Source: a virus
Direction: 5' to 3' (one strand)
Virus record (IMG/VR): IMGVR_UViG_3300026518_000066
Location: 1-21,196 of that record
Length of the DNA stretch: 21,196 bases
The translations under genes and the position numbers were made by a program. This document shows positions 210-17,148 of the stretch, one piece after another. The notes beneath the pieces were generated by a model. The model was not told the origin of the DNA and did no database searches. It worked only from the letters and a program-made list of their open reading frames with translations. Each line of letters starts with the position of its first letter. Within the stretch, counting starts at the first letter, position 1.

Positions 210-486
210 ACAAGTAGATAGTGGAATACTTTACTTATCTATTGTAGGATTAGTAATATCTATATATTATAGTATTAAATATAAACATTTATACTGTAAA
301 CATTGTCCATATTTTTTAAGTTTTATGTTATATACTCAAATATTTTATACTGTATCAGCTACTATATTTAGTGGTAATAAAATAATATCTGATATATCAG
401 ATTTAAATTATGATACTGTATTTTTCATTTTTCCTTTATTGCTTATGTTTTGTAATTTTTTTAAAGAGGATTGTAAATGCCATTAA
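193..486 (+). CDS. small membrane protein of the lysis cassette
   Basis: This 97-residue protein has about three hydrophobic stretches: residues 12-28 (ILYLSIVGLVISIYYSI), 38-58 (PYFLSFMLYTQIFYTVSATI) and 75-90 (VFFIFPLLLMFCNFF). A CKHC pair lies between the first two and CKCH ends the protein. The open frame extends back to 142, but a strong GGGAGG at 181-186 sits six bases before the ATG at 193, so that start is chosen; ATG 187 abuts the GGGAGG. Its last codons overlap the start of the LydA-type holin. Position and topology fit a second holin, antiholin or lysis accessory protein, but I recognise no family. Membrane location is well supported; the lysis role is inference from its neighbour. 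Confidence 0.65.
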   Translation: MEQVIEQVDSGILYLSIVGLVISIYYSIKYKHLYCKHCPYFLSFMLYTQIFYTVSATIFSGNKIISDISDLNYDTVFFIFPLLLMFCNFFKEDCKCH

Positions 487-791
487 AACACTTAAATGAT
501 GTACCACAATTTAACAGCCTATTCGTTTTATTATTAGGCTTATGGGGTGCAGTTATGAACTACTTAAAAAGAAAGCACGATAAATATACTACTATTAAAA
601 AAGTAGGTTTTTTTATACTAGATGTACTTACTAGCGGTGGTATATCAATAGTTACATATCTAGTGCTATATGGTTATACAGGTAATGAATTTCTTAGTGT
701 AGGTGTTAGTGGTGTATTTGCACATCTAGGTACTAGAGCGTTTTATATATTTGAACAGATAGTAGTACAAAAACTAGGAGTTACGCTATGA
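477..791 (+). CDS. holin, LydA-like (holin superfamily III)
   Basis: This 104-residue membrane protein has hydrophobic segments at about residues 14-28, 42-66 and 73-95. The C-terminal half, with GNEFLSVGVSGVFAHLGTRA followed by FYIFEQ, matches the conserved G-x-x-x-H-x-G-T-R-A pattern of phage P1 LydA-type holins. Such proteins form lesions in the inner membrane that let the endolysin reach the cell wall. The ATG at 477 has AGAGGA (465-470) six bases upstream and overlaps the end of the previous membrane protein gene. Its stop overlaps a lysozyme start in an ATGA junction at 788-791, the usual holin-endolysin coupling. Family assignment comes from motif memory and context. Confidence 0.75.
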   Translation: MPLKHLNDVPQFNSLFVLLLGLWGAVMNYLKRKHDKYTTIKKVGFFILDVLTSGGISIVTYLVLYGYTGNEFLSVGVSGVFAHLGTRAFYIFEQIVVQKLGVTL

Positions 792-886
792 AGCAATTAA
801 TAGAAACCATAAAAAAACATGAGGGATTTAGTTCTATTCCATATACAGATAGCAAAGGTTACCCAACAATAGGTAAAATAAAATAA
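788..886 (+). pseudogene. truncated lysozyme (GH24) N-terminal fragment
   Basis: This frame encodes 32 residues, MKQLIETIKKHEGFSSIPYT followed by DSKGYPTIGKIK, then TAA. It is the start of a T4-type muramidase: Glu12, Asp21 and Thr27 keep the exact E-8aa-D-5aa-T catalytic spacing. After Thr-Ile-Gly (codon ending at 874) homology stops, where a lysozyme should read Tyr-Gly-(Thr/His). AGGAG at 776-780 and the ATGA overlap with the holin stop mark this as the original endolysin start, still likely to be translated. An HNH endonuclease gene follows and then a complete lysozyme. The simplest reading is a gene broken at its active-site codons by arrival of the endonuclease cassette. The residual peptide cannot be a working enzyme. 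Confidence 0.75.
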
Positions 887-905
887 AATGATGACACTAT
901 GGGTC

Positions 906-940
906 TTTAAACTTAATTATGGTACAATAATAAAAAAGGA
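906..940 (+). promoter_or_regulatory. possible promoter and RBS before HNH gene
   Basis: An extended -10 element, TGGTACAAT, occupies 920-928, and AAGGA (936-940) lies six bases before the ATG at 947. No convincing -35 element is present at the expected distance, as is common for extended -10 promoters. This would let the endonuclease and the lysozyme behind it be expressed apart from the upstream lysis genes. Sequence match only. Confidence 0.35.
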
Positions 941-946
941 TTTGTT

Positions 947-1651
947 ATGAGTACAATAGTTAAAATTAAAGATTTTCCAGATTATGGAGTAACTAAAGAT
1001 GGGAAAGTATATAGTTACAAAAGAAAAAGATTTTTGTCAGAATATGTTGGAAACAATGGGTATATAGAATATTCACTAGGCAGAGGAAATAAAATTTTAG
1101 GACATAGGCTCGTAGCTAAAGCTTTTTTGCAAATACCTGAAGAGGCAAACAAATGGAAAAGAATTATTGTAAATCATATTAATGGAATAAAAACAGACAA
1201 TAGAGTAGAAAATTTAGAGTGGTGTTCGGACTCTCATAACAATTACCATGCCTATTCAACTTGCGGTAAAAAAGTTTCAAATAAAGTAATCGAATCAATT
1301 GTAAACAGTGCGAAAAAAAGAAAAGGCACAAAAATATATAAATTAAGAAAAATACAAAAAGAAGATGAAAAAAAACTATGTGGATTATATTTATCTGGTA
1401 AAACAATAAAAGAAATATCAAAAAAATATAATGTATCAACAACTGTAATCAAAAAAATATTGAAAGAAAACAATATAAAGACAAGAACCAGAAAAGTAAA
1501 AGTTATATCAATAGATAAATATGGTAATGAAGTTATCTATGATAGTATAGCGACAGCATCTAAGAATACTCGTACTCAAAGTACAAATATACAAAAAGTT
1601 TTAAAAGGACATAGAATAAAAGCAGGAGGATATAAGTGGAAAACCTTATAA
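947..1651 (+). CDS. HNH homing endonuclease (NUMOD4-HNH-HTH-NUMOD1)
   Basis: This 234-residue protein has the modular build of phage homing endonucleases. Residues 1-30 (KIKDFPDYGVTKDGKVYS) form a NUMOD4-like DNA-binding element. Residues about 52-103 carry the HNH_3 nuclease signature: HRLVAKAF, VNHINGIKTDNRVENLEWC and HNNYHA. Residues about 142-175 look like a helix-turn-helix (GKTIKEISKKYNVSTTVIKK), and 183-234 form a NUMOD1-like repeat ending AGGYKW. Such enzymes cut a conserved target in an allele lacking them and spread by repair. The gene lies between a truncated and a complete lysozyme, so the target is probably the lysozyme active-site region. Its end overlaps the second lysozyme by 16 bases. 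No intron structure was found, so it appears free-standing. Confidence 0.9.
   Translation: MSTIVKIKDFPDYGVTKDGKVYSYKRKRFLSEYVGNNGYIEYSLGRGNKILGHRLVAKAFLQIPEEANKWKRIIVNHINGIKTDNRVENLEWCSDSHNNYHAYSTCGKKVSNKVIESIVNSAKKRKGTKIYKLRKIQKEDEKKLCGLYLSGKTIKEISKKYNVSTTVIKKILKENNIKTRTRKVKVISIDKYGNEVIYDSIATASKNTRTQSTNIQKVLKGHRIKAGGYKWKTL
1624..1638 (+). promoter_or_regulatory. Shine-Dalgarno and GTG start embedded in HNH gene
   Basis: AGGAGGA at 1624-1630 lies five bases before a GTG at 1636-1638, which sets the start of the complete lysozyme. The same bases encode the Gly-Gly of the conserved NUMOD1 ending AGGYKW in the endonuclease. The lysozyme ribosome binding site is therefore made from a conserved part of the mobile gene, locking the two genes together. 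Confidence 0.7.
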
Positions 1652-2085
1652 CAAAAATAAAAAGACATGAATCATTTTCTAGTATGCCATATATAGACCC
1701 GATAGTCGATGTTGATGAAAAATTTAAGAAAGAATATGGGAAAAAATTATCATCATTAAATTTAACTATTGGTTATGGAACCAAACTAGGCATTAGTAAA
1801 GAGGAAGCAGAATGGCTACTAAAACATAGATTAAAAGGAATGGTGTTTAAAGTAGATTATAGATTAAAGTTAGAAGATATAAATGTATCTGATAATGTAA
1901 AACAAGCTTTATACAATATGGCATACAATCTTGGAGTTGATGGATTATTCAAGTTTAAAAAAATGTTACAGGCTCTTAAAGACAAAAACTATGAGTTAGC
2001 CAGTAAAGAAGCTTTAGATAGCAAGTGGGCTAAAGAAGTTGGTTCTAGGGCTACAGAAATAGCTGGTATAATAAGAAAAGGATAA
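1636..2085 (+). CDS. endolysin, GH24 lysozyme (muramidase)
   Basis: This 149-residue protein is a T4-type phage lysozyme that would cut the glycan strands of peptidoglycan once the holin opens the inner membrane. The catalytic Glu12 (KRHESF) and Asp21 (PYID) are present. The catalytic Thr44 stands in TIGYGTKLGIS, then EEAEWLL, and the C-terminal core with W130 and A-T-E-I-A-x-x-I-R-K-G closes the fold. Between Asp21 and Thr44 lie 22 residues, against five in canonical members and in the broken copy at 788. No signal or anchor sequence is visible, so export depends on the holin. The GTG start overlaps the HNH gene. Its N-terminus parallels the upstream fragment but is clearly diverged, so it is not a fresh duplication. 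Confidence 0.85.
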   Translation: MENLITKIKRHESFSSMPYIDPIVDVDEKFKKEYGKKLSSLNLTIGYGTKLGISKEEAEWLLKHRLKGMVFKVDYRLKLEDINVSDNVKQALYNMAYNLGVDGLFKFKKMLQALKDKNYELASKEALDSKWAKEVGSRATEIAGIIRKG

Positions 2086-2088
2086 TAG

Positions 2089-2709
2089 ATGAGTTCATCA
2101 AGCTATGTAGGTTATGCAGCTGGAATAAGTGCAGTATCTAATATTTTTCAAAGTATAGCTGCTACATCAGCATTAAAAAGTCAATTGAAAGCAGATACAA
2201 ATGCAAAAATAACTAATGCTTCAAATACTGTTGATACATATGCTTATCAGAGAGAATTAGCAATAGAGAATATTAATAATCTAAATCAAGTTCTTGGCGA
2301 TAAGATGTCTGAAAGAGGATTAACTAGATTAAAAGAAACAGCACTACTTAAAGCTGCTAGTGCTGAAACAGGAACAACAGGTGGTACTACTGATTATGCT
2401 ACACAAGAAGCTTTTTTAACAGAACAAATGGATAAAGCTAATATCAAAGCACAAGGAAATCAACAACTTAAACAATTATATAGTAACATGGAAAGCAATA
2501 CATTAAATACAAGAAATAAAATAGACAGTATATTAATTGGTGGTGGAGTATCAATAGAAACTAATCCATTATTACAGGGAATACAAGGTGGACTAAGTAT
2601 AGCTACAAATACAATAGGACTGCTACCTGATAGTGAGAAAGCTAAATTGTTTGGTATAGTTCCTGAAAAGAATGTATTAGATAATTATAAATCAGTATTG
2701 GAGAGATAA
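2089..2709 (+). CDS. internal virion protein, T7 gp14-like
   Basis: This 206-residue, Ala/Ser/Thr/Asn-rich protein starts with a hydrophobic Gly/Ala helix (VGYAAGISAVSNIFQSIAAT) followed by long amphipathic helices (residues 27-150). That is the build of T7 gp14-family core proteins, which leave the capsid on infection and form a pore in the outer membrane for DNA entry. T7 gp14 has 196 residues, and here too the gene is followed by proteins of gp15 and gp16 size in the same order. It starts three bases after the lysozyme stop. A Gly/Thr-rich segment (TGTTGGTT, near residue 98) resembles loops in the family. Assignment rests on size, order and composition rather than on a signature motif. Confidence 0.65.
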   Translation: MSSSSYVGYAAGISAVSNIFQSIAATSALKSQLKADTNAKITNASNTVDTYAYQRELAIENINNLNQVLGDKMSERGLTRLKETALLKAASAETGTTGGTTDYATQEAFLTEQMDKANIKAQGNQQLKQLYSNMESNTLNTRNKIDSILIGGGVSIETNPLLQGIQGGLSIATNTIGLLPDSEKAKLFGIVPEKNVLDNYKSVLER

Positions 2710-2713
2710 GAAT

Positions 2714-4945
2714 ATGAAAACACAAGGACTAAATACAATAGCAGGAACTAGAAGAACTACAACTGCTCCTAATGCCAATATGATTAATAGTAATATAGCT
2801 TCTGCAATAGTGCAACCAACTAAGCAGGTGGACAATACACAAGCTTTAATAGGTGATATAGGTAAAATGTTAGGTGGACTTGTAAAAACTCACCAGAAGG
2901 CTTCTAAGGTAGCTGGTGAACGAGTAGGAGTTGATAATCTAATAGCATATAAGAATGAAATGGATACTCTTAATCAACAATATGCTTCAAAGAAAAATTT
3001 AACTTCATCAGACTTTATAAATAAGACAGCACAAGAAAAACTAATATATGATAAGTATATGGAAAAAGGTGTATTTAAAGATAATGAAATAGCTAATCAA
3101 GGTTTTAAAGATACTTATGGTATTCCAGCAACTAAATTACTTATGTCAAAGAAATTACAGAATATAAATAACCAAAAGAAACTATTTATAAAAGAAGAAG
3201 TAACCGATATATCTAATTCAGTACATAATTTAGACTTTATGCTAAACAAAACAATAATAGATGGATTTAAAAAGAGATATGCAGACATAGGACTAGACCC
3301 TAAAGATGTAGATAAAATGGTGTTACAAAGAAGAAGTACAACCCTAGCAACAGAAATAAAAAATAACACAAGTGAATATTTTACTGCTGGAGGACAAATA
3401 AAGCAAGATAAAATTGATGCTTTAATTGGCGATACATATTCTACATACATAAATAGTAAAGATAGTGAACTTATATCTAAAATAAATAAATCAAAAGAGC
3501 AAGTAAACAGCTATATTGAGACTAGAGCTAATCAGGCAAAGAGAGATTATTACAATAGTGCAGTAAGTGTAGCTTCAGCATATACATTTAAAGGTGTACC
3601 ATATACAGATGAAAATGGTATAACTCATCACTTTGCTAATCAAAAAGAATATGAGAATATGTTGTCTGTACAATTTCCTGAATTATCAAAAACAGACCAT
3701 ACTAAACTAATGGATAAATATAAAGACTTAACAACAGTAAAAAATGCACAAGCTAGTATAAAAATATGGAAAAATAATTTTGATGAAAAAGTAAATAAAA
3801 TATTAAATGCTGGATTTACTCCTGATAAAGATACAGTACAATCACTAATAAAAGAAGCTGGTATATTAATCAAAAGCAAAACATTAACATCAACACAAGA
3901 AGCTACTATCAAGATAGAACTAGAAAAAGCCAAAGCAATACAATCGGGGAATAATATAGTAAATGGAATTATAGACAATGTAGTTGATGGTAAAACAACA
4001 ATAGAAGATGCTATAGACACCATAAATAGAGGAATGGTTAATCCATTTAATAATAAACTTATAAGCCATACACAATTTAATACAATAGCAGAAAAAAGAA
4101 TATCTGATATATCACAAAATATAAGTAATATAAAAATGGATAAAGATAATATACCTAAATTTCATAATAAACTAAAAGAATTGAATAAGTTAGAAAAACT
4201 AACCACAGGAGATACACCTAGTTTATTTAGTCGTTTTGATAATATCCTTAGAGATAAAACAAACATAGATAATATGTCAATGAATGATATACATCAATTT
4301 ATAGAGTATATAAAATATCAACATGATAATAATCCTAGTGGTATATATCAAGCATATTTTGGTGATGTTGTAGCAGTACAACAAAAACTAAATGATTTAG
4401 CACTTGATGCTAAAACACCATCATCAGAGAAACTAATAAATGCTAAGGTATATATGAAGAATATGTTAAAATTTCCCAATGTACCACCTAATGGAAGAAT
4501 ACTTATGGCTAAAGCTGTTAAGAATTATATAGGGGATAAAGGTTTTAATGAGACTACGGCACAAGGTATATCTCATGTATTGATGACATTATATACAGGT
4601 GCAAATTATAGTAATGATAATCTTAAAAAGTTTATTAATACATTTGAAACATACGATATGCCTAGTGCAGGACATATATTTAGTAATAAAAGAATAATCA
4701 AAAGTCAGTCATTTAAAGACTCACATGTTGAGTGGCTTATAAATGCAGAAATTAAAGCATATAATAAAGATATACATCATACAAAGATAGGTTTAAATGA
4801 TGTAGAGCCAATAGCATTTACTAAAACAAAGAATGGTGAAGCAACAGGAATTGCATATTATCTAATGGTAGAAACACCAAATGGTATGCAAAGTATAGGA
4901 GAGTTATCAGAAGATGTATATAAAAAAGCATATAGGAAACAATAA
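2714..4945 (+). CDS. internal virion protein, T7 gp15-like
   Basis: This 743-residue protein is soluble-looking, largely helical and rich in Lys, Asn and Ile, with no clear membrane segment or enzyme motif. It lies between the gp14-like and gp16-like genes, and its length is almost that of T7 gp15 (747 residues), which forms the periplasmic tube of the ejection complex. Residues 40-80 resemble N-terminal helices seen in such core proteins. The ATG at 2714 follows a purine-rich GGAGAG near 2700. The stop shares one base with the next start (TAATG at 4943-4947), which implies coupled translation and matched amounts. Identification is by position and length; no residue-level signature was recognised. 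Confidence 0.6.
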   Translation: MKTQGLNTIAGTRRTTTAPNANMINSNIASAIVQPTKQVDNTQALIGDIGKMLGGLVKTHQKASKVAGERVGVDNLIAYKNEMDTLNQQYASKKNLTSSDFINKTAQEKLIYDKYMEKGVFKDNEIANQGFKDTYGIPATKLLMSKKLQNINNQKKLFIKEEVTDISNSVHNLDFMLNKTIIDGFKKRYADIGLDPKDVDKMVLQRRSTTLATEIKNNTSEYFTAGGQIKQDKIDALIGDTYSTYINSKDSELISKINKSKEQVNSYIETRANQAKRDYYNSAVSVASAYTFKGVPYTDENGITHHFANQKEYENMLSVQFPELSKTDHTKLMDKYKDLTTVKNAQASIKIWKNNFDEKVNKILNAGFTPDKDTVQSLIKEAGILIKSKTLTSTQEATIKIELEKAKAIQSGNNIVNGIIDNVVDGKTTIEDAIDTINRGMVNPFNNKLISHTQFNTIAEKRISDISQNISNIKMDKDNIPKFHNKLKELNKLEKLTTGDTPSLFSRFDNILRDKTNIDNMSMNDIHQFIEYIKYQHDNNPSGIYQAYFGDVVAVQQKLNDLALDAKTPSSEKLINAKVYMKNMLKFPNVPPNGRILMAKAVKNYIGDKGFNETTAQGISHVLMTLYTGANYSNDNLKKFINTFETYDMPSAGHIFSNKRIIKSQSFKDSHVEWLINAEIKAYNKDIHHTKIGLNDVEPIAFTKTKNGEATGIAYYLMVETPNGMQSIGELSEDVYKKAYRKQ

Positions 4946-7900
4946 TGGATAATAGAGATTTTACTGATTTAGAAAGATTTAATACTGTTACTACTCCATC
5001 AATAGGTAATACTTCTGCTGATATAAATCTTATACAAGAGAATGTTACAGCTGAAAGAAATAAAAGAGAACAAGCTATAAATAAACTACAAGTAGATGCA
5101 AGACAAGCTAATCCTGATAGGTTTAATAAAGGTGGTGGACAATCAATAAAATATATATTAGACCATAGAGGAGAAACTAATACAGACAATAAAGAAGCTA
5201 CAAAATACATAGATGAGAAGTGGAAAGCAACCAAACAAGTAGCTAAAGAAGGAAATTACATTTTTAAATGGTTGGATAGTAAAGAAAGAGATAATAGAAT
5301 AAAAAAAGCAGATACATCTCTAAATGCCAATCCTATAAATATAAAAGATACTATGGCTATGGATATACTTAATAAACAAGGATTACCATTAGAGTATCTT
5401 AAATATATAAGAAGTGCTAAAACAGATAAAGGGTTAGAAACAACTATTGAATGGGCTAAAGAAGATGCTAAAACAAAAGGATTAATAGCTAAAACAATGT
5501 CTAGTAAAGAGATAGCATTAACAACAATAGCTAGTTCATTGCTTACCCCAGATATGGTTATACCCGTAGCTTTACCATCTGCTATATATAAAGTAGCAAG
5601 AATAGGTGAGGCATTAGATAAAGCAAGTATAGCATATAAGGCTAGTCAAGTAGCTAGAACAACTAAATTTATAGCTGGTACTGAATTTGGAGCACAAGCA
5701 GCCACATCATTCTTTCACCATAATATAGATAAAGACTATACAACTGCTGATGCAATAACTGATACATTAATTTATGGAACTATTGGAACAGCTATCACTA
5801 GATTTGTAACACCTAAAGCACTGGAAGATATAGCTAACAATACTATATATGGTAATGAAACTAAAGTACATAAATGGTTTAAAACTGAAGCAGAAGCAAA
5901 AGCTTATGGTTTAGAAAAACCAAAAATAAAACCAATAGACACTAAAATAGTAACACATGAAGCAGAAACAAATATTGCAAAACTAGAGTCAAAAAGAATA
6001 GTAGCTAGAATAACAAGAAAACAAAAACTAATAGAACCAAGAAGTAGATTAGCTAAAGCAGAACAAGAACTTAAAATAGCTAAAACAGAGCAAGATATAT
6101 CTAAAGCTAAGCTAGATATACAACAAGCTAAAGATGATATAAAGCTTATAGAGAGTGAACATAGAAAAATTATGTTAGGTCATCTTAAAAATATTAAAGC
6201 TATAAGAGAATCTATACCACAAGCATTAAAGGTTGAAAGATATACTTGGCACACACAAGAACCAAGTAGCCAATTAGAAAAGATATACCAATCAATAAAA
6301 AAAAATAAAGATATAGGGCATACACAAGTAGTAGAAAAACAAATTGATATAGCTAAAGAGAATTTTCCTGAAGAAACAAAACAAATAGAAGATTTAGTAA
6401 CAGGTAAAAATAGAAGTTTTCTTAATAGTATAGCATTTAAAAAACTATCTAAAACACAAAAAGCATTAGTTATATCTTCAGGTTTAATAGGTACTTCTGC
6501 ATACGCCAGTGGTGGTTCTAGCCAAGATAATACTGCAACTAATATAATCACTGCATTATTAGTTATCGCCTTAGGATATAGCTTTAGAGGCTCTTTAAAT
6601 GCACTATTTAAATCTCAGACAGGAATAGGTGGATTAACAGAAGGATTAAAGAATAGTTTAGTAAAAGCTTCTAAAGATATAGTACATGAAGAGAGCATGG
6701 TAGATGCTGGAGCATTAAGAAGAACATCTACTAGTTTAGCTGAAAAAGCATATACTCAATTTCTGTCAACATCTGCTCCATTTGTTAAAGCTGGTGGAAA
6801 AGCAAAAGAGTTTATAACTAAAATGTTATTTAATAAAGATTTTGGAGATGGAGCATTAACTTTAAAAACAGAATGGACTAAAGAAAGAATATCTAATTAT
6901 AATATAGCTGAAAAAAAATGGTTTAGAGTATGGCAAGAAGAAAATAGTTTAGGTAGAAATATATTGGCTATGAACCAAAATGATATGAAAAGGTTTAGAG
7001 AACTTGTCATGAATGTTAAAGAGGGAGTTATTGATAGTGATAGTAAAGCTATACAAGGATTATTAGATGAAGCAATACATAGTGGAATGGAACATATGGT
7101 TGAGGTTAATAAAACTTATGGTACACATGGATTTGATAAAATAAAATATGAAAAAAACTATGTACCAAGATTATGGAGAAATTCTAATATAAATACAATA
7201 TTATCTACAATGACAGATACACAAATAGAAGCATTTAGACAAGTGTTAATAAAATCAATAGAGAGTAAGAATGCTATAAAAGAAGCAGATACTTTTATAA
7301 AAAGTTGGAGAAGTAAAATATATAATGCTAGTGAAAGCAGTAAAGCAGATATAGTGGGTATGTTGTCTAATCAGGGCTTATTAAAAGATGGAGAAGATAT
7401 AGATACAATACTTGATGCCATTACCGGTGTAGGTGATAGAACAGCAAGAGCTAAGTATAAAGTTAAGATGAATATGAGAACCCTAAAGGAAGGATTAGAT
7501 GAGCTAGGAATAGAAGGTCTAGGCTTTAATGATATACTTGATAGGAATTCTGCATCTATTATGGATAAACTAGCTAATCAAATGTATGGCACTGCTGCAA
7601 TGTCTAAATCAGGATATACTTCATCTGTTAAGCTATCAAATGCTATTAAGGCAGTAATGGAACAAGATAGTGAATTAGGTAAACAAGCACAACAAATAGC
7701 AGATATTGTTAAAGGTGTGCCTTTGGAAACAGATAATAAACTACTGCAAGATTTATCTGGTGTAGCTAAAGACCTTACAATAGCAACTAGACTTCCTACT
7801 GTAATATTTTCTATGCCACCAGAAATGTTGCAAACATTGTTTTCTAATGGTTTTTTTAATGGTCTTAAAAATGTAGGTAAAGCAATAAAAGTTAAAATAG

Positions 7901-8754
7901 GTAAAGGAACAGAAGCAGAACAACAACTAGCACAAATAGGTGGACTAGGTAGAAGTACAGACATGCTAAATCTTAGATATGCTCATAGAGGATTTTCAAA
8001 TGAGTTTTTAGAAAGTGGTAGTGGAGCATTTAATGAATTTAGAAAAGGTACTATGTTAATGAGAGATTTAGTTGTGTATTGGTCTGGATTAGCTGGCATA
8101 GGTGATGTATTGCAATTAGCTAATAAATTTGCACATACAGAACAAATAGCCAAGATAGCTAATAACTTAGAGCATAGTATCCCTAGCGAAAGATTTATAG
8201 AATTTGGTATTACTAAAGAAAGAATAGCTAGACTTAAACAGCATATGAAGTTTGATAAAGACGGTAATCTTTTAGCAATAGATTATGGCAAAATGGGTAT
8301 TAAAGCACAAGATGATTTAAAGGCTATGTTGTTTAATATGAACCAAGCTATAACACCTGAAACAACAGTAGGCGAAACTGCATTGTTTGCACATACTAGC
8401 TCACTTGGTAGAGTAATGAGCAGCCTAGTGTCTTATCCTATGCAACAGTTTAATATACAAGGCATACAAGGTGTTAAAAGAATGGATAAGTATAGTGCTA
8501 TACAATTAATGGCTGGTATAGGTGGAACATATTTAGGGTTAAGTGCTAGAAATTCTCTGTTTAATAAAGGAATGTCAGAAGAAGATACATTAAAATATTC
8601 TTTGCTTAATTCACCTCAATTATTGGCTGCTGGTGTTATAAGAGCTAATGCTAATCCTGCACCAATGAAAACAATACAGAATATTACATCACAAATATCA
8701 AACCTAATGCAATTTACTGATAGTAGTTATGGGAGTAAATATATAAATGAGTAA
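4945..8754 (+). CDS. internal virion protein, T7 gp16-like ejection protein
   Basis: This 1269-residue protein is the largest in the window and takes the gp16 place (T7 gp16 has 1318 residues). Such proteins line the inner-membrane part of the DNA ejection channel. Hydrophobic stretches occur near residues 190-215 (after SSKEIALTTIASSLLT), 506-524 and 533-547 (NIITALLVIALGYSF). Residues about 340-410 form a charged helical segment with repeated KAEQELKIAKTEQDISKAKL-like units, probably coiled coil. T7 gp16 starts with a lytic transglycosylase domain; I see no such catalytic Glu motif here. The gene overlaps the small terminase candidate by 8 bases. The assignment rests on order, size and membrane pattern. 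Confidence 0.65.
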   Translation: MDNRDFTDLERFNTVTTPSIGNTSADINLIQENVTAERNKREQAINKLQVDARQANPDRFNKGGGQSIKYILDHRGETNTDNKEATKYIDEKWKATKQVAKEGNYIFKWLDSKERDNRIKKADTSLNANPINIKDTMAMDILNKQGLPLEYLKYIRSAKTDKGLETTIEWAKEDAKTKGLIAKTMSSKEIALTTIASSLLTPDMVIPVALPSAIYKVARIGEALDKASIAYKASQVARTTKFIAGTEFGAQAATSFFHHNIDKDYTTADAITDTLIYGTIGTAITRFVTPKALEDIANNTIYGNETKVHKWFKTEAEAKAYGLEKPKIKPIDTKIVTHEAETNIAKLESKRIVARITRKQKLIEPRSRLAKAEQELKIAKTEQDISKAKLDIQQAKDDIKLIESEHRKIMLGHLKNIKAIRESIPQALKVERYTWHTQEPSSQLEKIYQSIKKNKDIGHTQVVEKQIDIAKENFPEETKQIEDLVTGKNRSFLNSIAFKKLSKTQKALVISSGLIGTSAYASGGSSQDNTATNIITALLVIALGYSFRGSLNALFKSQTGIGGLTEGLKNSLVKASKDIVHEESMVDAGALRRTSTSLAEKAYTQFLSTSAPFVKAGGKAKEFITKMLFNKDFGDGALTLKTEWTKERISNYNIAEKKWFRVWQEENSLGRNILAMNQNDMKRFRELVMNVKEGVIDSDSKAIQGLLDEAIHSGMEHMVEVNKTYGTHGFDKIKYEKNYVPRLWRNSNINTILSTMTDTQIEAFRQVLIKSIESKNAIKEADTFIKSWRSKIYNASESSKADIVGMLSNQGLLKDGEDIDTILDAITGVGDRTARAKYKVKMNMRTLKEGLDELGIEGLGFNDILDRNSASIMDKLANQMYGTAAMSKSGYTSSVKLSNAIKAVMEQDSELGKQAQQIADIVKGVPLETDNKLLQDLSGVAKDLTIATRLPTVIFSMPPEMLQTLFSNGFFNGLKNVGKAIKVKIGKGTEAEQQLAQIGGLGRSTDMLNLRYAHRGFSNEFLESGSGAFNEFRKGTMLMRDLVVYWSGLAGIGDVLQLANKFAHTEQIAKIANNLEHSIPSERFIEFGITKERIARLKQHMKFDKDGNLLAIDYGKMGIKAQDDLKAMLFNMNQAITPETTVGETALFAHTSSLGRVMSSLVSYPMQQFNIQGIQGVKRMDKYSAIQLMAGIGGTYLGLSARNSLFNKGMSEEDTLKYSLLNSPQLLAAGVIRANANPAPMKTIQNITSQISNLMQFTDSSYGSKYINE

Positions 8755-8968
8755 ACAAGAAGAGTTAAAACAATTAGATGATTTGCTTAGAAGCAAAATG
8801 ATAGAATGTTTGCAAGATGATGGGGATATATCTATATTAAAAGATTTATCACCTATCGTAATGTATCTTAGTAAAAATAATACAGTAGCAGAGAAAGCTA
8901 GAACTACTGAAGAAGATATTATAAAACAAAGAATAAGAGAAGCAGAAAAGAGAAGAAAAAATAAATGA
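8747..8968 (+). CDS. probable small terminase subunit (DNA maturase A)
   Basis: This 73-residue protein starts with helix-forming LKQLDDLLRSKMIECLQDDG and ends with the basic tail RIREAEKRRKNK. The layout (a short helical N-terminus, an acidic turn, then a helix and basic tail) resembles the very short small terminases of T7-like phages, such as T7 gp18 (89 residues), which recognise DNA and regulate the large subunit. Its position directly before the large terminase, with an ATGA overlap at 8965-8968, supports this. No helix-turn-helix is obvious. It could also be an unrelated small structural protein. Confidence 0.55.
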   Translation: MSKQEELKQLDDLLRSKMIECLQDDGDISILKDLSPIVMYLSKNNTVAEKARTTEEDIIKQRIREAEKRRKNK

Positions 8969-10698
8969 TAGATTTCGTTACAGCTACACCAGAAGAAACA
9001 ATAGAATATTTTACCCAAAATAAATGGGGAAATGTATATGATGATGATAAATATTTTAGAGACGAAGAGTTAGAAGATAATTTCATAGTCTTTTGTACTT
9101 ATGCTTTTGCTTGGCAAGGATTACCTAGACCTACCTATAATCAATATATGATAGCACTACATCTATATAAAAAAGAAAATCAACACAGAATGGTATGGGC
9201 GAGCAGAGGATTAGGAAAGAGTTACTTCTCACAATTATATGTAACTTGGAGATTATTAAATAATCCTAACGAGCATATATTAGTAATGTCTGCTTCTACA
9301 AGTAGAGCTAGTAATTATACAGGTTTTGTAAAGAAGCTGATAGGTCTATTGCCTATAACTAAACCAATGATGCCACAACACAATAAACAAAGAACTTCAT
9401 CTCTTGCATTTGATGTTGTAGGTGCAGAAGCTAGTGATAGTCCATCATTGTATGCTGTTGGTGTAGGCACTGCTGTAACAGGTTTTAGAGGTACTTTGGT
9501 TATTGCAGATGATATAGAGAGTAGTGTTACAGCTCAATCTACTACACAAACAGAAACAACTTTACAACAATTCTATGAAGCAATGAACTTGCTTATAAGT
9601 GGTAAAGATGAAAGTATTATATTAGCTACTCCTCACTCTATTAGTAGTTTATATATTGAACTATTAGATAGAGGTTGGAAGCTATTAGCTTTACCTGCTG
9701 AAGTACCTGGTAGTGATAGTGCTTACTTTGGTGGTTTATCACCCCATATTAAAGATATGATAGATAAAGGTATGATAGGTATAGCAGTAGATGAAAGACT
9801 TAATAAAGACTTCTTGTTATCCAAAAAGATGAGAATAGGTAAGTCTAACTTTAAATTACAATACCAATTAGATGTATCAGATAGTGATGATTTAAAATAT
9901 CCATTAAAGCTATCAGACTTTATAGTTATGGATGTAGATAATGAAGGTGCTCCATTAAAAGTAAATCATTCATCTATGCCTGATAAACAATTATATATAA
10001 AACATCATGGTTTTAAAGCTGATAGATTTTATAGTCCATCTTATATTAGTAATGAAACTGCACCTTATGAAATGAAATTAATGAGTATAGACCCAAGCGG
10101 AAAGGGTAAGGATGAAATAGGTATCTCCATTATATATTCTTTAAATACTAGATTATTTATTAAAAAGATAACAGGTATTCAAGGTGGCTATGAAGATGAT
10201 AATATGATACAGATAGCTCAATTATGTAAAATACATAATATAGATACTTTGCTATTAGAAGAGAATTGGGGAGGTGGTATGTTTACTAAAATGTTAGAAC
10301 CTCATCTAGTCAGAATAAGTCCTAAGACAGAGATAGATGAAGTTAATGTTCGAGGACAAAAAGAAATTCGTATTATAGAAGCACTAGAACCACTCTTAAA
10401 TCAACATAGATTAGTTATTGATAAAGATACACTAGATAAAGACTTTAACGCTTCAGCAGTCAATAGCTTTACTTACCAGCTATCTAAGATAACTAAAGAA
10501 AAAGATAGTCTAAGACACGATGATAGATTAGATAGTTTAGCTAATGGTGTAATTTATATGATAGATAAAATGAGTGATAATGAAGAGTTTGGAATAGAGA
10601 AATGGAATGAGAAAGAGGGTAAAAATAATTTAGATTTTACCCTCTCAATGTTTGACAACAGAAATATAGTTAATTCTAATTATGGCTTAGTCTTCTAA
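8965..10698 (+). CDS. large terminase subunit (DNA maturase B, T7 gp19-like)
   Basis: This 577-residue packaging motor has an ATPase half with Walker A ASRGLGKSY (residues 79-87), Walker B LVIADDIE (178-185) and a coupling motif ILATPHS (219-225). The nuclease half has MSIDPSGKGKDEIG with Asp376, a second acidic site LLLEENWGGG (429-438) and LRHDDRLDSLANGV (517-529) supplying the late acidic residues. Such enzymes cut concatemers and pump DNA into proheads. The ATPase spacing and the D-P-S-G-x-G-x-D pattern match the T7 gp19 branch. It is the last gene of the rightward block, and its TAA overlaps the stop of the leftward adenine methylase by four bases. Confidence 0.92.
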   Translation: MIDFVTATPEETIEYFTQNKWGNVYDDDKYFRDEELEDNFIVFCTYAFAWQGLPRPTYNQYMIALHLYKKENQHRMVWASRGLGKSYFSQLYVTWRLLNNPNEHILVMSASTSRASNYTGFVKKLIGLLPITKPMMPQHNKQRTSSLAFDVVGAEASDSPSLYAVGVGTAVTGFRGTLVIADDIESSVTAQSTTQTETTLQQFYEAMNLLISGKDESIILATPHSISSLYIELLDRGWKLLALPAEVPGSDSAYFGGLSPHIKDMIDKGMIGIAVDERLNKDFLLSKKMRIGKSNFKLQYQLDVSDSDDLKYPLKLSDFIVMDVDNEGAPLKVNHSSMPDKQLYIKHHGFKADRFYSPSYISNETAPYEMKLMSIDPSGKGKDEIGISIIYSLNTRLFIKKITGIQGGYEDDNMIQIAQLCKIHNIDTLLLEENWGGGMFTKMLEPHLVRISPKTEIDEVNVRGQKEIRIIEALEPLLNQHRLVIDKDTLDKDFNASAVNSFTYQLSKITKEKDSLRHDDRLDSLANGVIYMIDKMSDNEEFGIEKWNEKEGKNNLDFTLSMFDNRNIVNSNYGLVF

Positions 10699-11597
10699 AA
10701 TAAGCTTTTTATGTTATGTTCTTTATTACAAAATAACTTTTCTACCACTTTGTTATTTGCTGCTCCTGATAAAGTGCATCTATGCTTAAATTCTGCTACA
10801 CAAGGTAAATCAAACTCATAACTACTCACATAAATTTTATATGGACTTTGTTTTATATAGTCCATAAGCTCTTTATAATTTAAATCCTCTTTATATTTTG
10901 CAGTACCATAGTATGGTGGGTCAAGATAAATAATTGTTTCATTTATTGGAGTATCTATAACAACTTCATCATAAGATTTGTTTTGTATCTCGAGCTGTTG
11001 GAGCTGTTGGAGCTGTTGGAGCTGTTGCAGTCGTTCTAGGTGTTGCAGTCGTTCTAGGTGTTGGAGGTCTATTATTCCAACTTGTTTTTTTAACATTGCC
11101 ATAATAGTTATTCTATCTTTACCCATGTAACTTTTATCTATCATTTCTTTTTTATATAAATTATTAAAAGCCTGTCTTGATTTTTCGCATTGATTTATGA
11201 CTATTTCATGCAATAACCGCTTAGGCTCTTCGATGTCTCTACCAAACAAATAATCTTTTTGATTATTCCCAAAACTCCAAACAACCGCACAAAGTCCACC
11301 AAACCAAGTATTGTCGTTTTTATGTTTATTAAAAGTATCTCTATCTGCCCATTTGTAAAACTCTTTAGCTACACCTTCCTTTTGTATTTTTTTTAGTAAC
11401 TCAACTACTCCAGTATTTAACTCATTATAGATAACCCTTTTAATCTTTTTTCTCCTCAAAGCTTCAAAACTTATGGCTCCACCACCACCAAACAAATCAT
11501 AGAAGTATTTAGTATTTGGATTGGCTTGTAATATCTTATCTATAATTGGTTTTGCTAATTTTCGTTTACTGCCCATATATGGCATACATAACTTCAC
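10695..11597 (-). CDS. DNA adenine N6-methyltransferase (Dam / D12 class)
   Basis: This 300-residue enzyme transfers a methyl group from SAM to adenine in DNA. PYMGSKRKLA (residues 6-15) and DLFGGGGAIS (34-43) form the SAM-binding region; IIYLDPPYY (222-230) is the catalytic D-P-P-Y motif IV. Between them, in the target recognition region, residues 178-203 are a run with Leu every third position (HLERLQ units, then QLQ units). No partner restriction enzyme is nearby, so protection from host restriction or marking of phage DNA is likely. The chosen start is GTG at 11597, six bases after AAAGGA; its TAGTG overlap couples it to the gene before. An ATG at 11585 is the alternative. Confidence 0.88.
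   Translation of the reverse strand: MKLCMPYMGSKRKLAKPIIDKILQANPNTKYFYDLFGGGGAISFEALRRKKIKRVIYNELNTGVVELLKKIQKEGVAKEFYKWADRDTFNKHKNDNTWFGGLCAVVWSFGNNQKDYLFGRDIEEPKRLLHEIVINQCEKSRQAFNNLYKKEMIDKSYMGKDRITIMAMLKKQVGIIDLQHLERLQHLERLQQLQQLQQLQQLEIQNKSYDEVVIDTPINETIIYLDPPYYGTAKYKEDLNYKELMDYIKQSPYKIYVSSYEFDLPCVAEFKHRCTLSGAANNKVVEKLFCNKEHNIKSLF
10992..11060 (-). repeat. in-frame tandem repeats inside the adenine methylase
   Basis: Two perfect 18-bp copies (11025-11042 and 11043-11060, each coding HLERLQ) adjoin three perfect 9-bp copies (10998-11006, 11007-11015, 11016-11024, coding QLQ) and a partial one. Both periods are multiples of three, so changes in copy number keep the frame. The peptide has Leu at every third residue, not a heptad zipper. 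Confidence 0.9.
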
Positions 11598-11889: not shown

Positions 11890-12093
11890 TTAAACTAATT
11901 CACTAATACATTGCGTAGCAAACCTACTTAAACCTCGTCTATCTATTAACTGATAATACATACCTATACCATCTTTACCAAATACATCTTCAAGTAAATC
12001 TTGTATCTCTTTTTTTGTTATACAGGCATCTACCTTAAACAAATCTATACAATCCTCTTTATAGTTTAAAACTACTAAGTATTTATTCTTCAT
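11890..12093 (-). CDS. small hypothetical protein
   Basis: This 67-residue protein, MKNKYLVVLNYKEDCIDLFK and onward, has a strand-like start, a probable helix at residues 26-40 (TKKEIQDLLEDVFG) and a mixed end. GGAAGGA lies five bases before the ATG, and the start overlaps the end of the GIY-YIG-like gene by four bases (ATGA type). A hairpin follows its stop. I recognise no family. Confidence 0.6.
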   Translation of the reverse strand: MKNKYLVVLNYKEDCIDLFKVDACITKKEIQDLLEDVFGKDGIGMYYQLIDRRGLSRFATQCISELV

Positions 12094-12506
12094 ATCAATC
12101 CTTCCATTGCATTATCAAAAAACTTACCACCAATATTCTTATTATTAAAATTATCATTAAACAGTACATCTTCTTGAAATAATAATTTCTGTTCCAAATA
12201 AGTAGCAGTTCTTTTATTTGAGGTAAAATATAATATCTCTTTTAATATCAATTTCTTACCCTTATTCTCTTTACTAGAACCAACATACTTTATAAAAGGT
12301 AAATCTTTTAGCTCTACTCTCTTATAGTTCTTTCTAATAGCTAATTGCTTTTTGGTTGGTTTAATCTTTCTTATAGCTCTTACAGTCTTATACCCTATAT
12401 ACATAGTCATATCTTCATAATATAACTTATATACGATATGAGTACAGTTATCAGGTATATCATTATGAGATAATACTCTTTCTCCTTTATATATCCAATT
12501 AATCAA
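12090..12506 (-). CDS. GIY-YIG-like endonuclease (SegE-like)
   Basis: This 138-residue protein has the marks of a compact phage GIY-YIG nuclease: HIVYKLYYEDMTMYIGYK (residues 23-40) covers the GIY and YIG strands. A central LPFIKYVGSSKE matches the W-x-x-Y-x-G-S-S element of the family, and YLEQKLLF and the later Asn-rich NDNFNNKNIGGKFF match its acidic and terminal elements. Such proteins cut DNA as homing enzymes or act in processing phage DNA. The first motif reads VYK rather than GIY, so activity is not assured. The start is an uncommon TTG at 12506, set by AGGAGGA just upstream inside the previous gene. Location beside SSB suggests a DNA metabolism role. Confidence 0.55.
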   Translation of the reverse strand: MINWIYKGERVLSHNDIPDNCTHIVYKLYYEDMTMYIGYKTVRAIRKIKPTKKQLAIRKNYKRVELKDLPFIKYVGSSKENKGKKLILKEILYFTSNKRTATYLEQKLLFQEDVLFNDNFNNKNIGGKFFDNAMEGLI

Positions 12507-16958: not shown

Positions 16959-17148
16959 TTTTTTGAGTTCCTTTCTTAAGATATTAAAAGTATATCATAT
17001 ACCACCTTAATACTATCTTAGTACTGCTTAATCCTTGAGGTTTCCTTGAGGTTTCCTTGAGGTTTCCTCTTCTTAGTATTAGATATAGATTATTATTACT
17101 ATTAGATTAGTGTTACTTTTTATAATAAAAAAAAATTTTTAAACAACA
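16959..17148. promoter_or_regulatory. control region or replication origin candidate
   Basis: This is the longest clearly non-coding stretch in the leftward block. From the RHH gene outwards it holds the palindrome GTATATCATATAC (16990-17002), the inverted repeat TACTA-TCT-TAGTA (17011-17023), three 11-bp direct repeats (17033-17065), TTAGAT-like repeats (17075-17110) and an A/T-only core (about 17120-17143). On the minus strand a TATGAT -10 candidate lies inside the first palindrome. Iterons plus an AT-rich run are also typical of origins. The layout is seen; the role is inferred. Confidence 0.5.
17033..17065. repeat. three perfect 11-bp tandem repeats (iteron-like)
   Basis: CCTTGAGGTTT occurs three times head to tail without mismatch (17033-17043, 17044-17054, 17055-17065), followed by the first four bases CCTC of a partial copy. 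The period of 11 bp is close to one helical turn, so each copy presents the same DNA face, as expected for cooperative protein binding. The unit is far more GC-rich than its surroundings. Confidence 0.92.

Follow-up and report, generated by a model that had tools for sequence, protein, structure and literature searches.

Can an endonuclease gene settle among the active-site codons of an essential phage gene with neither an intron nor an intein to remove it? This question is raised by the lysis locus of IMGVR_UViG_3300026518_000066, a fragment of a T7-like podophage (21 kb); the whole stretch of 21,196 nucleotides analysed here is called the window. In this locus, a holin gene is followed by the start of a lysozyme gene, an HNH endonuclease gene and a second lysozyme gene (Table 1). 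A first-pass annotation had read this arrangement as a resident lysozyme broken by a homing gene that arrived with its own resistant substitute, a self-compensating cassette. It is established that homing endonucleases preferentially target sequences that code for active-site residues (PMC3943268). Moreover, intron-independent homing is known for free-standing endonucleases of phages, and the recipient, having exchanged its own cleavage sequence for that of the donor, is assumed to be resistant afterwards (PMC2988022; PMC12724721). In this study, we re-read the locus base for base, finding all the annotated coordinates correct, and compared it with other phage loci that carry homing genes.

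Table 1. Features of the window, with the profile matches or sequence characters on which they rest
Feature	Position	Strand	Basis or remark
Holin, superfamily III LydA-type	477..791	+	PF16083 E=7.9e-9; phrog_785
Lysozyme 5' stub	788..886	+	phrog_7 (endolysin) E=1.5e-6 for the 32-aa piece, PHROG scan
Leader between stub and HNH gene	875..946	+	GC 0.21; AAGGA ribosome-site-like sequence
HNH homing endonuclease, I-HmuI-like, C-terminal NUMOD-like domain	947..1651	+	phrog_59 E=5e-33
AGGAGG ribosome site and GTG start of second lysozyme	1624..1638	+	Within the HNH gene's conserved A-G-G-Y-K-W codons
Second lysozyme, complete, 149 aa, GTG start, T4-lysozyme fold	1636..2085	+	Phage_lysozyme PF00959 E=3.2e-10, 40.9 bits
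Putative replacement N-terminus, 21 aa	1636..1698	+	62% identical to stub; sequence comparison
22-codon loop between D21 and T44	1699..1764	+	Usual length 5 codons
Thr-Ile-Gly codons, presumed stub/body junction	1765..1773	+	ACTATTGGT against the stub's end ACAATAGGT, 7/9
Internal virion proteins	2089-8754		
Terminase	8965-10695		

Anatomy of the interrupted lysozyme

The stop codon of the holin gene (TGA) overlaps the ATG of the first lysozyme copy in an ATGA at 788-791. This copy translates to MKQLIETIKKHEGFSSIPYTDSKGYPTIGKIK followed by a stop, that is, 29 canonical codons up to Thr-Ile-Gly (Gly29, ending at 874) and then KIK. The stub contains the motif E12-8aa-D21-5aa-T27, and the coupling to the holin, the spacing of the triad and the end of the canonical match are as first annotated. 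Since the start is well placed and coupled to the holin, the stub could be taken for a functional small protein or a regulator of lysis timing, with the downstream gene acting as an independent second endolysin. We find this very hard to believe of a product of only 32 residues that lacks most of the fold and terminates in a non-homologous KIK.

The HNH endonuclease gene and the complete lysozyme behind it, with its Thr-Ile-Gly ending at 1773, were also confirmed by profile searches (PF13392, PF22083 and PF00959). The HNH protein matches HNH_3 (PF13392) with E=1.4e-8 and 34.7 bits (cut-off 24.8), and the I-HmuI NUMOD-like C-terminus (PF22083) with E=5e-7 and 29.6 bits (cut-off 27). Both the nuclease core and the C-terminal domain of I-HmuI-type HNH endonucleases are therefore present by profile, and its activity is predicted. 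I-HmuI itself is encoded within an intron, whereas the HNH gene of the window lacks a detectable one: the leader contains no intron core, and its promoter signal is not above the shuffled background. HNH genes of this type often reside in group I introns, and excision of 875-1773 with joining of the stub to the lysozyme body would yield a canonical lysozyme. Nevertheless, an unrecognised intron is very improbable. Rfam covariance models gave no match to a group I intron in the window at two thresholds (gathering threshold and E up to 5), and returned only unrelated eukaryotic small-RNA families. In addition, the HNH-free sequence amounts to only 72 plus about 120 nt, the latter encoding a lysozyme N-terminus, and the GGT-TAT join lacks the terminal G with which group I introns end.

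The second lysozyme seems to borrow its translation start from the HNH gene. The HNH protein ends in AGGYKWKTL, and the codons GCA GGA GGA TAT AAG TGG read in another frame as AGGAGG-ATATAA-GTG. The overlapping HNH and lysozyme genes look established, which argues against a contig error in which the assembler fused two phage strains, one contributing the lysozyme start and the other the HNH gene and its lysozyme. Such an error, conceivable for a single metagenomic contig of which no second copy was found, appears improbable. Comparable starts were detected elsewhere. In a split-intein terminase (L264), the frame of the C-half likewise opens at an ATG within the AGGYKWKY codons of the homing gene, and in a thymidylate synthase (thyA) locus (L358) the start codon lies within the terminal GYxW codons. 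The L264 locus itself (3026-5750, minus strand) encodes a large terminase in two halves, one with an N-intein and the other with a C-intein, separated by a NUMOD1 (HNH-type) homing gene. In L270 (around 12867 of the reverse complement), a 253-codon methyltransferase-like frame opens at an ATG in an AGGYKWKY homing-gene end, behind a GGAGG ribosome site. A general rule that downstream genes start within AGGYKWK codons was rejected, as an open frame of at least 60 codons was found in only 6/66 loci.

The downstream gene had been described as a complete but diverged lysozyme. Its catalytic residues, predicted from the sequence, are E12, D21 and T44, and the first and last of these are invariant in the 28 lysozymes compared. 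The canonical triad is thus kept; its spacing is not, as 22 residues instead of 5 separate D from T. This places about 17 extra residues at the very Thr-Ile-Gly codons where the stub breaks. In an AlphaFold model of the protein (mean pLDDT 86.5), both hairpin strands (14-20 and 43-46) are retained; the extra loop between these strands is modelled with low confidence as a lobe that includes a short helix. Foldseek matches of the model were T4 lysozymes and the lysozyme domain of T4 gp5. The second lysozyme is therefore predicted to be intact and to retain a T4-type fold. No source of the 22-codon loop was found within the window, nor in phages with a 57-aa query, and a comparable loop was absent from all the other lysozymes compared. 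A match to PHROG 15410 across the loop was rejected as a shared loop, because ordinary lysozymes match the same region of that profile.

Relatedness of the two N-termini and extent of the putative insert

The stub and the N-terminus of the second lysozyme are related: 13/21 residues and 41/63 bases (65%) are identical, and a tblastn search within the window links them with E=8.7e-6. When compared with 155 other lysozymes, each is the best partner of the other, with a score of 70 against 63 for the next partner of the second N-terminus and 69 for that of the stub. We also reconstructed the empty site in silico by joining the stub to the body at YGTKL..., which gave a canonical lysozyme. This joined form scored 80.7 bits with phrog_7, as compared to 50.6 for the second copy as it stands; the intact lysozymes of one Nautiliaceae contig and one phage contig reached 77-78. 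Similarly, its Pfam score rose from 40.9 to 60.7 bits and the match began at residue 9 instead of 42. As a higher score is to be expected with any canonical N-terminus, these values indicate compatibility of the two parts rather than common descent.

Base composition gives an indication of the extent of the insert. GC content is 0.31 in the holin gene, the stub, the lysozyme body and the next gene, and is lower in the leader (0.21), the HNH gene and the second N-terminus (0.27 each) and the 22-codon loop (0.24). Taken together, block 875-1764 has a GC content of 0.26, approximately the lowest 1% of the windows of this phage, as compared to 0.314 for stub plus body. Campylobacterota-type lysozymes (L116 and L038) are among the nearest to both the stub and the body. 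The confinement of low GC to this block, along with these shared neighbours, is a hint that the mobile block extended no further than the Thr-Ile-Gly codons and that the lysozyme body is the resident's own; in that case only an N-terminal part would have arrived, rather than a whole lysozyme.

Relatives of the phage and exchange of the lysis module

Searches of IMG/VR with the lysozyme, holin, HNH, terminase and internal virion protein as queries revealed no relative that has a matching holin and lysozyme and lacks the HNH gene. The relatives found through the internal virion genes carry endolysins unrelated to the lysozyme of the window. In L005, L006, L025, L026, L029, L031 and L032, other endolysins (M15-like peptidases, amidase-like proteins and others) lie upstream of the ivpA homologue. 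Unrelated endolysins at the same place in related podophages indicate that the lysis module is a hot spot for swapping. This would favour an illegitimate exchange, in which the HNH gene and its lysozyme entered together from another phage at a random point, truncating the old lysozyme without any action of the endonuclease. A random point does not readily explain why the gene is broken precisely at active-site codons, at which the second copy differs too, and we regard such an exchange as unlikely. On the other hand, neither a stub nor an HNH gene was present in any of the 163 other lysozyme loci (0/163), which counts against a homing cassette.

Other elements were observed in the window. A free-standing SegE-like GIY-YIG gene (12090-12506, minus strand) overlaps its upstream neighbour and has a 45% identical copy in the related contig L007. 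Exact tandem repeats with 9-bp and 18-bp units occur within a D12 adenine methyltransferase gene (10992-11063, minus strand) and read as HLERLQHLERLQQLQQLQQLQQL; this region is possibly variable in length. An intergenic stretch (17032-17068) contains 3.4 copies of the exact 11-bp tandem repeat TCCTTGAGGTT.

The same layout in thymidylate synthase

As no uninterrupted relative of this phage was found, we screened other homing-gene loci. In 62 loci with an AGGYKWK[YF]-type homing gene, the sequence just upstream of this gene was compared with the gene just downstream. Four of these loci (three distinct) contained a thyA gene with the layout of the window: a stub of 25-28 codons, a GIY-YIG/NUMOD homing gene, and a complete thyA starting over or against the end of the homing gene. 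Another candidate from the screen, L211, was rejected because the two genes on either side of its homing gene are paralogues. The search was then extended to relatives of thyA, which provided 51 distinct loci, 7 with a GIY-YIG homing gene directly upstream and 44 without.

A 5' stub was present in 5/7 loci of the first group and in 0/44 of the second. Loci without a homing gene have a single intact thyA and no stub, and the same is true of cultured Flavobacterium phages. The comparison with HNH-less relatives proposed in the first annotation is thereby made in a different gene. In L196, L251 and L380, the stub breaks at the active-site Asp-Arg codons, whereas the break directly follows Asp-Arg-Thr-Gly-Thr (DRTGT) in L220 and comes slightly earlier in L374; no stub was detected in L358 and L375, where a homing gene also lies upstream of thyA. 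These stubs terminate in short unrelated tails, a further point against a functional small protein. The intact thyA is associated with a particular allele as well. All seven genes behind a homing gene carry a variant Arg-Asn-Gly motif, as compared to 10/44 of the others (Fisher p=1.7e-4, which is optimistic because the query was of the variant type and the loci are related by descent). DRTGT or a near form is found in 34/44 loci without a homing gene.

The idea of a self-compensating cassette gains partial, indirect support from this independent gene family: among the loci examined, thyA stubs are confined to those with a homing gene upstream, and all seven intact genes behind such a gene are variant at the broken motif. 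The restriction of stubs to such loci, again with breaks at active-site codons, also speaks against the random exchange of modules. Moreover, the thyA layout recurs across independent assemblies (L341-L344 and L402; L220 and L235), which indicates a real class rather than an assembly error. In large phages, the combination of stub, GIY-YIG/NUMOD gene and variant thyA was seen in L196, L220, L235, L251, L341-L344, L374, L380 and L402. A direct parallel is weakened by the fact that the thyA homing genes are of the GIY-YIG type, unlike the HNH gene of the window.

Discussion

The results of our study make it probable that the lysozyme locus is a splicing-free homing cassette, in which the cut 5' end of the resident gene is left as a stub and an altered 5' end is supplied. 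In such a scenario, the free-standing HNH endonuclease would target phage lysozyme genes at the codons of the conserved active-site hairpin (Thr-Ile-Gly-Tyr-Gly). On repair, the cut gene would receive the low-GC block, composed of the HNH gene and the altered lysozyme 5' end, with transfer running towards the cut allele. This 5' end would be fused in frame to the lysozyme body, and the resident 5' end would remain as the 29-codon stub. Given a start codon within the last conserved codons of the HNH gene and an enlargement of 17 residues at the target, the new gene should be expressed and no longer be cuttable. Later rounds of homing may then rely on two homology arms, the stub on the upstream side and the lysozyme body on the downstream side.

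One of the closest known processes is the intronless homing of T4 SegF, MobE and their kin (PMC2988022; PMC12724721). As in those systems, a free-standing endonuclease gene (947-1651) adjoins its presumed target, if this is the lysozyme, and the linked allele is presumed uncuttable. Here, the linked allele is altered at the target by 22 codons that replace 5 before Thr-Ile-Gly, and its resistance is presumed. In classic cases, the cut takes place hundreds to thousands of bases away (PMC2988022), whereas in the window the break coincides with the insertion point. A break at the very site of the presumed cut departs from the classic pattern and counts against a homing cassette. The upstream stub of the cut gene and the structural alteration of the linked 5' end are further differences.

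The nearest precedent lies in fungal mitochondria, in the mORFs described in atp6 of Allomyces and in atp6, atp9, cox2 and nad3 of Glomus, in which an endonuclease ORF carries a foreign host-gene end in frame and the native end is left as a remnant (PMC3630166). In the window, both a remnant and a replacement end are present, and GC content and nearest neighbours hint at a resident body. Even the DNA identity of the duplicated ends is similar, 63.5% in the mORF atp6 (PMC3630166) and 65% in the lysozyme of the window. In the fungal mitochondria, however, the replaced end is the C-terminus, with the remnant downstream, whereas in the phage it is the N-terminus, with the remnant upstream. In addition, mORF endonucleases are of the LAGLIDADG or GIY-YIG type and that of the window is an HNH enzyme. 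The phage cassette is best read as intronless homing in a variant form, mirroring the mitochondrial hybrid genes. A homing gene also interrupts an essential gene at critical codons in split genes, such as Aeh1 nrdA/mobE and T4 gene 60/mobA (PMC2988022), and in the split-intein terminase of L264. Unlike in those cases, the 3' gene of the window is complete by itself, so neither assembly of halves nor protein splicing is needed. As no intron was found, the layout also differs from that of introns. We found no description of phage 5' stubs of this type in a non-exhaustive search of the open-access literature.

More tentatively, the lysozyme and thyA loci may represent a general phage class of splicing-free cassettes that replace the 5' ends of essential genes at active-site codons. 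The stub would provide the left homology arm, and some members would draw a portable ribosome site and start codon from the conserved C-terminal codons of the endonuclease (GGxGGxTAYAARTGG-like). We consider such a class possible, though short of probable. If true, it would constitute a third route, beside introns and inteins, by which homing genes enter essential genes harmlessly.

Altogether, our findings suggest that a selfish endonuclease with neither intron nor intein could reside where an essential gene is most conserved, by bringing an altered, apparently working 5' end of that gene. As the layout of stub, cutting gene and replacement is also found in thyA of unrelated phages, homing genes may enter essential genes in this way without killing the virus. 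The pattern of a gene stub, a homing gene and a complete gene is easily searched for, and it directly provides candidate cut sites as well as natural pairs of presumed-sensitive and presumed-resistant alleles. It also carries a warning, since gene callers will annotate the stub as a separate gene. Finally, it links homing in phages to the hybrid genes of fungal mitochondria.
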